Assembly (NCBI GenBank): GCA_029781035.1
Contig: JAKOXK010000034.1
Coordinates: 1-64,000, forward strand
Origin: Armatimonadota bacterium
GTDB lineage: Bacteria; Armatimonadota; Fimbriimonadia; Fimbriimonadales; Fimbriimonadaceae
Direction: 5' to 3'
DNA length: 64,000 nt
In this document: positions 6,340 through 29,050 of the stretch, in pieces
Layout: every line of letters starts with the position of its first letter
Position numbering within the stretch: the first letter of the stretch is position 1
The notes under the pieces: generated by a model
Seen by the model: only the letters and a program-made list of their open reading frames with translations
What the model was told of the DNA's origin: nothing
Databases searched by the model: none
Translations under genes and position numbers: made by a program

Positions 6340-6358
6340 ACTCGGCAGAGTGCCGAGT
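6340..6358 (+). other. Hairpin after pilB
   Basis: ACTCGGCA and TGCCGAGT form a perfect 8-bp stem with a 3-base loop, five bases after the pilB stop. There is no U-run, so it may stabilise the mRNA end or act as a weak terminator. Confidence 0.4.
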
Positions 6359-6375
6359 CAGGGTACATTCGGCAA

Positions 6376-6397
6376 GCGGAAGGCGTGCGCCTTCCGC
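6376..6397 (+). terminator. Perfect 10-bp hairpin before tRNA-His
   Basis: GCGGAAGGCG and CGCCTTCCGC form a 10-bp stem with a 2-base loop. It ends five bases before tRNA-His and has only a weak T tract (TTCGTCC). A TACATT box at 6364-6369 could start the tRNA transcript just before the hairpin, making it a pre-tRNA leader instead of a pilB terminator. Confidence 0.5.
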
Positions 6398-6402
6398 TTC
6401 GT

Positions 6403-6478
6403 CCCCGGGGAGCTCGGTAGGTTGAGCAGCGGTCTGTGGAACCGAAGGTCATGGGTTCAACTCCCATTCCGGGGACCA
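6403..6478 (+). tRNA. tRNA-His(GTG), atypical
   Basis: The cloverleaf has acceptor CCCCGGG paired with TCCGGGG, D arm GCTC/GAGC, anticodon loop CTGTGGA (anticodon GTG at 6436-6438), T arm ATGGG-TTCAACT-CCCAT, and an encoded CCA. It lacks the nearly universal tRNA-His feature: position -1 is T and the discriminator is A73, so there is no G-1:C73 pair. Core positions 8, 14 and 21 read G, G and T in place of the conserved U8, A14 and A21. The anticodon and T arm leave little doubt about identity. It lies 20 bases upstream of the histidyl-tRNA synthetase gene. Confidence 0.85.
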
Positions 6479-6498
6479 TTCTGCAAGGACGGATCCGT

Positions 6499-7878
6499 GT
6501 GCTGACCAACTACCCAGGAACTCAAGACAGGTTCACCGACGACATTCTGCTCCGACAGTGGATCCTGGCCCAGTTCCAGGCTGTCTACCGTGAGCTCGGT
6601 TTCCATCTCTTGGAGACTCCTTGTCTCGAACCTGTTGCGATCCTGGCCAAGTCGGGAGGGGTCGGGGATCAACCGACTTTCACATTAACCGACAAACACA
6701 GGGACGATGTCTGCCTCAAGCCGGATCAGACCGTCTCGTTGCGGAGAGTGGTCGAACAGCACCGGTTGAGGCTTCCATTCCCCCGTCACCAGGTTGGATA
6801 TGCCTTCCGGCAGGACAAGCCTGAGAAAGGCCGCTGGCGCGAGTTCCTCCAGTGTGACGCGGACTTCGTCGGTGCCCCCCTTGGCACCGCCGATGCCGAG
6901 ACGGCCTTGTGGTTGCTCCAAGGCTTCGAGGCCATTGGTTTGCCAGAGACCGTCCTCTACATCAACACGCGCCGCATTCTGAAGGGCCTCTACGTGTCCC
7001 TTGCCGACTCATTCTACGACGAGCTGACCTTCACGCGGGCAGTGGACAAGGTTCCGAGTAACGGAGACCTTGAGCCGGTTCGAACCTACCTCATGGCGGG
7101 CTATAAGGAGACTCTCGACGATGGATCGGCCAAAGTGGATCCAGTTGCCCAAGCGGCAGCGGAGAAGATCGTCCGTCTGCTGGCGGGGCTCAGGGATTTC
7201 CGAGAGATGCCCGCAAGGGAATCGCTCCGACAGTTTGCCGAAGCTTATCCAGCCGAGGTGGAGGATGTCGAGTCGTTGGCGTCGGTCATTGAGTGTGCGG
7301 CGGAGGCCGGTGCCCCGATCGATCGTATCGTCTTCGATCCATGTCTGGCGCGTGGGATGGACTATTACACGGGCCCGGTGTTCGAGTGCCACTGTCCACT
7401 TTGGCCCTATGGCAGCATCGCAGGCGGCGGCCGTTACGATGAGATGATCAAGATCGAGGGAGAGCCGCAGCCGTCGGTCGGAGCCTCGTTTGGCCTCGAC
7501 CGGATCGAACAAGCACTGAAGGATCTGGGAAGAGTTCCGGCTTCATGTACGCAGCGAGTCGCTGACGCCCTTGTCATCACGAAACCGGACTGGCTGCCGG
7601 GGGCAATGCGCGTCGCGAGACAGCTTCGGGAGGCGGGAGTCAAGACCCTGGTCTACCCAGATCCGAGGGTGACCCTCAAACTTCAAACTCGGTTTGCGGC
7701 TCAAAACGGAATCCCTTGTGCTGTGTTTTTCGGCCCGGACGAACAGGCTTCGGGCACCGTCACAGTTCGGGAAGTGACTCCGGAGAGGGACGTTGCGGAT
7801 CCTGAAGCAGCCCGAAAAGCCAAGAACATATCGGTGCCCCTCGCGGACTTGGTCGCGACCGTGCGATCATTGGGGTGA
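6499..7878 (+). CDS. hisS: Histidyl-tRNA synthetase, divergent type
   Basis: A 459-residue class II synthetase that charges tRNA-His. Motif 2 reads FRQDKPEKGRWREFLQCDAD, the HisRS-specific motif is RGMDYYTGPVFE, and motif 3 is GGGRYDEM...GASFGLDRIE. A C-terminal anticodon-binding domain follows (about 360-459). The EFLQCDADFVG stretch differs from the common FHQxGxE form and resembles, from memory, the divergent alphaproteobacterial HisRS that works with tRNA-His lacking G-1. The start is GTG 6499, preceded by AAGGACGGA; the frame also extends upstream into the tRNA, which cannot be coding. hutH follows after four bases. Confidence 0.93.
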   Translation: MLTNYPGTQDRFTDDILLRQWILAQFQAVYRELGFHLLETPCLEPVAILAKSGGVGDQPTFTLTDKHRDDVCLKPDQTVSLRRVVEQHRLRLPFPRHQVGYAFRQDKPEKGRWREFLQCDADFVGAPLGTADAETALWLLQGFEAIGLPETVLYINTRRILKGLYVSLADSFYDELTFTRAVDKVPSNGDLEPVRTYLMAGYKETLDDGSAKVDPVAQAAAEKIVRLLAGLRDFREMPARESLRQFAEAYPAEVEDVESLASVIECAAEAGAPIDRIVFDPCLARGMDYYTGPVFECHCPLWPYGSIAGGGRYDEMIKIEGEPQPSVGASFGLDRIEQALKDLGRVPASCTQRVADALVITKPDWLPGAMRVARQLREAGVKTLVYPDPRVTLKLQTRFAAQNGIPCAVFFGPDEQASGTVTVREVTPERDVADPEAARKAKNISVPLADLVATVRSLG

Positions 7879-7882
7879 CCCC

Positions 7883-9553
7883 ATGTCCGAGCCGCACCAT
7901 GTAGACGTTTCGCGCGATCTGACGATCGACGACGTGGTACGGGCCTCTCGCTTCAGGTGCCGTCTGCAACTCACTGCAGAGACGCGACACAAGCTTGATG
8001 AGGTCAGGACTGCAGTCATTGACCGCGAGAATGATCGCGACGAGAGGATCTACGGGTTCAACACTGGATTTGGTGACAACCGAACTCGTCCCACGGTGCC
8101 CAAGGATCAACGCGGTGTCATCCAAGACAACTTGATCCTGAGTCACGCCTCGGGATGGGGGGAGCCGATAAGCGTCGAGGTCGTGCGGGCGGCCATGGTG
8201 ATCCGAGCCCGTACGTTGGCCATCGGTCACTCCGGCATCCGGTCTGCACTGCTGAGCGCCCTGTGCTCGCTCTACAACAGCAGCCTGGTCCCCGTCGTGC
8301 CGAGTTTTGGCAGCGTCGGGGCGAGTGGCGATCTCGCCCCCCTTTCACACATGGCGTTGCCACTCATGGCGCGCGGCGAAGTGTGGGTGGACGATGGCCA
8401 GATCCTGCCTGCCAGCCGTGCTCTAATTCAGGCTCGGGGAGTTGAACTTCTTTCCTACCGCCCCAGTGACGAGTTTCCGGGGGTCGAGGGCCCGGAATCG
8501 GTCTTTGGTCCGAAGGAAGGGCTCGCCCTCAACAACGGCACAGCGTTCATGGCAGCATGGTTGGCTCTTTCGGTCGAATCCTTTGAGAACGTGCTTTGGC
8601 ACGCTAACTTGGCATTGGCGCTGAACACCGAGGCGATGTGTGGCGTGATGGACGTGTACGAACCGCAAGTGCAGGCGATCCGGGGCCACTGGGGAGTGCA
8701 GCAGTGTGCGGCCGCCGTGGCTGGCCACCTTCACGACTCGAAACTGGTTCTACGGCGGCACGAGGCGGAACCGGGATCCTTGGCGGCCCGGACCCTGCCC
8801 GGCAGTGGCATTGTCGACTCTGTCCAAGACGACTACAGCCTGCGGGCGGCATCGGTTGTTCACGGGACCGCAGCCCAGTGCCTGGCCGGAGTCCGGTCTA
8901 CGGTCGAGGCGGAACTCAATTCCGTTACGGACAACCCCGTCGTCGTCGATCGCGATGTGGTGCTTTCCGCTGCTCACTTTCACGGTATGCCACTCGCGTT
9001 TGCCGCCGACCAGCTACGGACGGCAGCGGCGATCCTTGGCGGCATCTCTGAGCGACGCGTCACCAAACTGATGAACGATCGCAGAAACTATGGCCTGCCT
9101 CGCCATTTGGTCATCGGCGACGAAACAGGGGTGCAGTCCGGCTGGATGATCGCTCAATACTTGTGCGCCTCGATGGTCAATGAACTCAAAACGCGGTCAA
9201 TGCCGTACTGCGTGGGCAACGTGACGACCGGCAACGAGGCGGAGGACTTCGTGAGCATGGGAGCCAACGCCTGCCGGTCCACGTACGATTGCGTTGGAAT
9301 ACTGCAAGGGGTGGTCGCGGTCGAATTGGCGGCGGCTGTGAGGGCCCTTCTCATCCGGACGGGTACGGTGGGATCCGACCTGTCAACACAGGGTCTATCC
9401 ACAGCTGCCCAACGAGCGATTGCGGCGTTTCATGATGCGGGTATCGAAGTTGGCCATACCGACGACCGGCCTCTCGAACCCTTGATCCGTCAATCGGCTT
9501 CGCTGATCGAGACGGGCACTCTTCGAACCAAACCGTCTGCCGGTTCGCAGAGT

Positions 9554-9568
<15 letters not shown>
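7883..9568 (+). CDS. hutH: Histidine ammonia-lyase
   Basis: A 561-residue member of the MIO aromatic ammonia-lyase family that converts L-histidine to urocanate and ammonia, the first step of the Hut pathway. The self-cyclising Ala147-Ser148-Gly149 lies in GSVGASGDLAPLSH. GFNTGFGDNR and NLILSHASG are also family motifs. Other MIO lyases (Phe, Tyr) are possible, but hutU, hutI and ftcD in the same window favour histidine. The ATG at 7883 starts four bases after hisS, so the two are probably co-transcribed. The last 15 bases overlap the 3' end of rnpB on the other strand. Confidence 0.88.
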
Positions 9569-9862
<294 letters not shown>

Positions 9863-28630: not shown

Positions 28631-28662
28631 CTTCCTGACGGCGTTCGCGCCGTTGATTCCAA

Positions 28663-28772
28663 GGCCTAATGTGCCGTGTGCGGCACAGCGGGGGACCCAG
28701 ACCTGGGGTGAATGCCGAACTTTTCGGCAAGGGTGGTTCTTGGCCCTAACCCGGCAGCTAACCTCGTAAGCC
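28663..28772 (+). promoter_or_regulatory. c-di-AMP riboswitch (ydaO/yuaA type)
   Basis: The conserved ydaO core is present in order: GGGGGACCCA, CTGGGGTGAAT, a GCCGAA/TTCGGC hairpin, AAGGGTGGTTCTTGGCCCT, and the diagnostic CCCGGCAGCTAACCTCGTAAG. A 5' hairpin (TGTGCCG/CGGCACA) and an outer GGC...GCC closing helix fit the family. These riboswitches turn expression off when cyclic di-AMP is high and usually govern wall hydrolases or potassium uptake. The nearest plus-strand gene is an MFS transporter 366 bases away with its own promoter-like box. Confidence 0.88.
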
Positions 28773-29050
28773 AATGCAAGAACCGGGACTCGGTCCCGGA
28801 TGAGGAGTCGAGTGATTTACGCAACTGCCACCGATCTGAGACACCGCCGACCAGGCGTGTGGCGAAGGGTGCCGGAGCAGCCCCTGCAAGAATCCACGGC
28901 ACAAAGAGCTGAGCGCGAAGCCCACAGCTTCAAGACCAGTACCCATGAACCTCCAAACCGCTCGACCGGACGCAGGGCCTTTTGTCACCACTGGGGCCCT
29001 GGGCCATCGACAGCCTGACGAAAGGTCAAAGCGGTCCGCCTCGCTCCTTC
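28773..29050 (+). other. Structured region after the riboswitch, no recognisable gene
   Basis: CCGGGAC/GTCCCGG (from about 28783) forms a hairpin directly after the aptamer and could be the expression platform, although there is no U-run. Further stems follow: GTGCCG/CGGCAC enclosing GCAG/CTGC, and GAGCTG/CAGCTT. A 72-codon frame begins at the ATG at 28801 but looks like no known family. The stretch may be a noncoding RNA or the remains of a gene. Confidence 0.4.

Follow-up and report, generated by a model that had tools for sequence, protein, structure and literature searches.

The window analysed here, a stretch of 64,000 nucleotides of contig JAKOXK010000034.1 from an Armatimonadota bacterium (assembly GCA_029781035.1), carries a tRNA-His gene that lacks the G-1:C73 pair and, directly downstream, hisS, which encodes a divergent histidyl-tRNA synthetase (HisRS). 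The two genes very probably form a linked pair with a G-1-independent histidine identity, which replaced the canonical system in the genus of this bacterium (genus g1) and was passed to or from G157, a member of a second genus of the family (genus g2), or to both from a common source. In the following, the window is contig C83 of genome G000, which is 3.42 Mb in size and 96.3% complete.

The tRNA-His and hisS genes

The tRNA-His(GUG) gene lies at positions 6403 to 6478 of the forward strand and was identified by ARAGORN and Rfam. Direct reading of its ends gave t(-1), CCCCGGG ... TCCGGGG, A73, and an encoded CCA. The acceptor stem thus has 7 bp and begins with C1:G72, and both G-1 and C73 are absent because T stands at position -1 (6402) and A at the discriminator position (6475), which is C73 in canonical tRNA-His. 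A preliminary description of this DNA had reported the same T at -1 and A73, which was confirmed. A shifted register, with G6401 as G-1, C6476 as C73, an 8-bp stem, and a moved CCA, was rejected because the T-arm sets A6475 as base 73 and the ACCA end is encoded. In the window tRNA, T(-1) could pair with A73 and G(-2) with C74. However, base -1 is t, t, t, g, and c in the five genomes having an A73 tRNA-His of this type; hence, it is not a conserved element, and a conserved U-1:A73 pair was ruled out.

In place of the almost invariant U8, A14, and A21 of tRNA cores, the window tRNA-His carries G8, G14, and U21; all remaining tRNAs of the genome have U8 and A14. This change is common to the tRNA-His of G174 (L076, 1409-1484) and is not found in G175, G176, or G157, although the HisRS of G175 is the closest to the window HisRS. 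Remoulding from the tRNA of another amino acid was considered and rejected, as no tRNA of the same genome was clearly closer than canonical tRNA-His (best matching letters, 42 vs 42).

The hisS gene occupies positions 6499 to 7878 of the forward strand (GTG start at 6499, stop at 7876-7878, 459 aa). Its start is 20 bases 3' of the tRNA-His CCA, and a Shine-Dalgarno-like AAGGA was read directly in the intervening sequence (6485-6489, forward strand). In the product, PF13393 and PF03129 both scored above their Pfam cut-offs, the HisRS signature LARGMDYYTG and motif 2 are present, and the best fold matches were HisRSs, human HisRS among them. The protein is a histidyl-tRNA synthetase by Pfam, fold, and signature motifs, and its charging function is predicted. 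The best NCBIfam model was hisS (TIGR00442) with 265.2 bits, below the curated cut-off of 286.75, which is an annotation threshold and no biochemical criterion; the HisRS of G157 was likewise below it (254.7 bits). The paralogue HisZ was rejected because the protein scored far under the HisZ cut-offs and is the sole HisRS candidate in the genome. The predicted structure is uninformative on tRNA recognition because confidence is low at the motif 2 loop.

The pair appears to be the only histidine system of this genome. Rfam recovered 44 tRNAs from G000, and ARAGORN, run on all of them, called a single tRNA-His; thus, no second, canonical copy was present among the 44, a point that the preliminary description had proposed to check. 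The window HisRS used as a query matched only itself up to an E value of 10. A canonical HisRS query again returned only the window hisS, in two pieces (E value 6e-19), and the same query recovered full canonical HisRSs in G123, G019, and G062. A canonical HisRS was absent from G000, G174, G175, G176, and G157, and also from G004, an Armatimonadota genome of family f5.

Distribution of the pair and covariation with motif 2

Among 85 genomes of the family, the window-type HisRS was found in four of four genus g1 genomes (G000, G174, G175, and G176) and, outside this genus, only in G157, one of about 20 genus g2 members. Identity to the window HisRS was 69-80% for the other genus g1 members and 57% for G157. 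In all five genomes, a tRNA-His with A73 and C1:G72 lies directly upstream of hisS. The earlier view of a probably non-alphaproteobacterial case with tRNA and enzyme side by side was supported, as were the reported 20-base spacing and the divergence of the enzyme. In all 43 other family genomes from which a pattern search recovered a credible tRNA-His, with matched strings counted by eye, this tRNA has C73, and G-1 was seen wherever the flanks were fetched. When 291 Armatimonadota genomes were scanned by pattern, A73 tRNA-His was returned only from G000, G174, G176, G157, and G004; the other A73 matches were read and judged to be tRNA-Leu arms or chance. The scan was not exhaustive, since the pattern did not pick up the G175 gene, which ARAGORN recovered. 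Beyond Armatimonadota, patterns of the close relatives retrieved only two genus g1 members, and no close relative of the window HisRS was encoded on viral contigs.

The window HisRS was aligned with 35 other HisRSs, with the E. coli numbering counted on Klebsiella HisRS. Motif 2 and its loop, FRQDKPEKGRWREFLQCDADFVG (6805-6873, forward strand), carry K107 and E109 at the positions of E. coli R116 and Q118. The E. coli enzyme reportedly contacts G-1:C73 through R116, Q118, and R123, in work of Connolly et al. from 2004 that PMC3937112 cites. The R116/Q118 to K107/E109 replacement occurs in five of five window-type HisRSs. Elsewhere, the two positions are K/G in alphaproteobacteria, K/D in G004, and R/Q in Bacteroidota and Armatimonadota family f2. 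The change that covaries with A73 is K107/E109 and not the motif 2 ending EFLQCDADFVG. The latter had been put forward as a sign of the alphaproteobacterial type, a view that found no support in this form, as near-identical strings occur in Bacteroidota (EFYQCDADVVG) and in family f2 (EFWQCDVDTVG). The pattern EF.QCDxDxVG is not diagnostic because Bacteroidota share it, as does f2, whose tRNA-His has G-1:C73. HisRSs of the Bacteroidota and f2 types are on the same side of the HisRS tree as the window enzyme and differ from it in keeping Arg116 and Gln118. Since f2 combines a non-canonical HisRS with G-1:C73, a non-canonical branch alone does not imply G-1 loss.

Family f2 (L045-L047; G001, G016, and G030) represents a third HisRS type in Armatimonadota; its genomes have a non-canonical HisRS, no canonical HisRS, and a tRNA-His with G-1:C73. 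In addition, G062 has a second, very divergent HisRS-like gene (L049, G062:C1:4656721-4657818) beside its canonical HisRS.

Phylogeny, origin and probable transfer

The five window-type HisRSs form one clade (support 100/100) on a long stem. With the most divergent rows dropped, a 100/100 branch split this clade from canonical HisRSs, and forcing it to group with them gave a p value of 0.036 in the approximately unbiased (AU) test (first sequence set). The phylogeny suggested in the preliminary description thus places the window HisRS outside the canonical clade. The window pair has neither feature of the canonical bacterial system, namely G-1:C73 and a HisRS within that clade.

Loss of G-1 is well known in alphaproteobacteria (PMC3937112, PMC9976931, PMC3875453); within bacteria it 'likely arose only once' (PMC3937112), and convergence with eukaryotes has been suggested (PMC5370408). 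The RRCH clade and most SAR11 resemble the Armatimonadota pair in having A73 without an encoded G-1, Lys at position 116, a replaced Q118, and a HisRS branching on the non-canonical side. They differ in G1:U72 (Shinella and Methylobacterium) vs C1:G72 and in Gly vs Glu at position 118, and the Armatimonadota tRNA gene adjoins hisS in another phylum. An import of the pair from the RRCH lineage, by which the known single origin would have spread by transfer, is possible and on balance rather unlikely. The shared G-1 loss, A73, and Lys at 116 are consistent with it, as is a first tree, with the motif 2 loop included, in which the clade joined alphaproteobacteria and G004 weakly (72/82). This grouping disappeared when the loop was masked. 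With canonical rows omitted, joining the clade to alphaproteobacteria and G004 was not rejected (AU p value 0.405), and joining it to family f2 was no worse (0.42, not rejected). Furthermore, the window HisRS is only 32-33% identical to alphaproteobacterial HisRSs, and the differences in acceptor pair and at position 118 argue against an import. Of the preliminary description, the loss of G-1:C73 and the divergence of the HisRS are supported, and the motif 2 string as a mark of the alphaproteobacterial type is not; the link in the tree (72/82) depends on the loop. An origin separate from the alphaproteobacterial case is hinted at by C1:G72 vs G1:U72. We give about even weight to a separately arisen G-1-independent identity (C1:G72, A73, K107/E109) that would have spread as a two-gene cassette and replaced canonical histidylation.

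G004 likewise has an adjacent pair with A73 and without G-1, and differs in G1:U72, in Asp at position 118, and in a Thg1-like protein in its genome. Its HisRS grouped with those of alphaproteobacteria at 92/81, 73/91, and 88/90 in three trees (bootstrap 73-92). With a G1:U72/A73 tRNA beside hisS as well, G004 seems to have imported the alphaproteobacterial system or one closely related to it. A second tRNA-His of G004 has T at -1 and C73 and lies inside an array of 14 tRNAs. The G004 loci concerned are L178/L048 (G004:C21) and L137 (G004:C48).

Within the family, cysteinyl-tRNA synthetase (CysRS) was chosen from the window as a comparison gene, and a quick tree was built with Shimodaira-Hasegawa-like approximate likelihood ratio test (SH-aLRT) support only. 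G157 fell inside genus g2 as the sister of G156 (81% identical), and genus g1 was placed apart from g2, among genera whose examined members have a C73 tRNA-His. The HisRS of G157 groups with genus g1, in conflict with the CysRS placement. The patchy distribution of the linked pair, together with loss of the canonical enzyme, suggests that tRNA-His and hisS moved together. Most likely, the pair moved laterally as a unit between genus g1 and G157, in either direction, or reached both from a common source; transfer, which the preliminary description had named beside co-evolution, is thus supported within the family by the conflict between the two trees. At the G157 locus, the pair is upstream of hisG (Pfam) and of further open reading frames (ORFs) resembling his genes; unrelated ORFs, one transposase-like by eye, lie in between.

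Genomic setting, proposed mechanism and significance

In the window, an aromatic amino acid lyase gene (7883-9568) directly follows hisS; its best match is histidine ammonia-lyase, below the curated cut-off. The ORF after hisS in G176 and G175 starts with a sequence similar to this lyase. RNase P RNA (class A; 9550-9862, minus strand) is tail to tail with the lyase gene, with an overlap of about 20 bases. The stretch from gspE to the tRNA gene is taken up by two strong hairpins (6340-6400), of which the second stops some 4 bases short of the tRNA; a search of this gap for a sigma-70 promoter or a T-tailed terminator recognised neither. A c-di-AMP (ydaO/yuaA) riboswitch is located at 28653-28787.

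Gene content, sequence elements, distribution, covariation, and the conflicting HisRS and CysRS placements of G157 are observed, whereas we infer the specificity of charging, the 5' end of the mature tRNA, and which way the pair was transferred. Processing by RNase P most probably yields a normal acceptor stem of 7 bp that begins at C1, to which G-1 would not then be added by an enzyme of the Thg1 type. The adjacent single-copy HisRS with K107/E109 would charge the A73 tRNA-His, presumably by recognising A73 and the GUG anticodon, and possibly also C1:G72, rather than G-1:C73. In genus g1, tRNA-His and hisS together would have displaced the canonical histidylation genes. In Caulobacter, tRNA-His identity depends on A73, U72, and the anticodon (PMC9976931). 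G1:U72 with A73 was reported to be critical for a HisRS from a related alphaproteobacterial source (PMC7590224). As U72 is replaced by G72 in all five genomes, the recognition rule cannot equal the alphaproteobacterial one. The identity elements listed for bacterial tRNA-Pro include G72 and A73 (PMC9976931), and tRNA-Pro and tRNA-His both have G36.

Several observations weigh against this proposal. Position 118 is not strictly diagnostic, as the canonical HisRS of G026 has Gly there and yet C73 is kept, and the canonical HisRS of G024 has Lys at 116. Most of the genomes compared are draft assemblies. The tRNA-His pattern search misses roughly half of the real genes, so the absence of a canonical tRNA-His from the relatives is less firm than that from G000. 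The 96.3% completeness of G000 leaves room for a second copy in the gap; however, that a canonical tRNA-His and HisRS lie in its unassembled 4%, with the window pair as an extra, is scarcely credible, because a canonical HisRS is likewise lacking from the other four genomes with this pair (three of the genus, plus G157; 88-99% complete). The possible pairing of U-1 with A73 in G000, G174, and G175 also counts against an ordinary 7-bp stem. Bacterial RNase P leaves a paired -1 base on canonical tRNA-His, and G-2:C74 pairing is possible in G000 and G174. It is nevertheless improbable that the mature tRNA keeps a paired U-1 and that recognition by the HisRS continues to rely on an acceptor stem of 8 bp, because the -1 base cannot pair with A73 in G176 (G) or in G157 (C).

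A post-transcriptional addition of G-1 by an unrecognised guanylyltransferase, giving a eukaryote-like G-1:A73, was judged very improbable. In its favour, eukaryotic tRNA-His likewise has A73 (PMC9976931), and the fold matches include the human enzyme. Eukaryotic cytosolic HisRSs are on the same, non-canonical side of the tree as the window enzyme. In eukaryotes, however, Thg1 adds G-1, and no Thg1 homologue was found in G000, G174, G175, G176, or G157 by a search that does find one in G004 and in Methanosarcina. The proposal of a linked, G-1-independent pair is accordingly preferred over these alternatives.

No report of a G-1-less tRNA-His in Armatimonadota was found in the literature searched, which did not cover the founding alphaproteobacterial papers. 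G-1 loss, taken as a single bacterial event and a phylogenetic marker, is now seen in a different phylum and in two forms; the rare rewiring is thus shown to extend beyond one alphaproteobacterial group. One Armatimonadota form has a different acceptor code, and its two genes apparently pass together from one genome to another. The finding is relevant to the question of how rules of tRNA identity can change without a non-viable intermediate, and the pair is a candidate orthogonal HisRS/tRNA-His pair.
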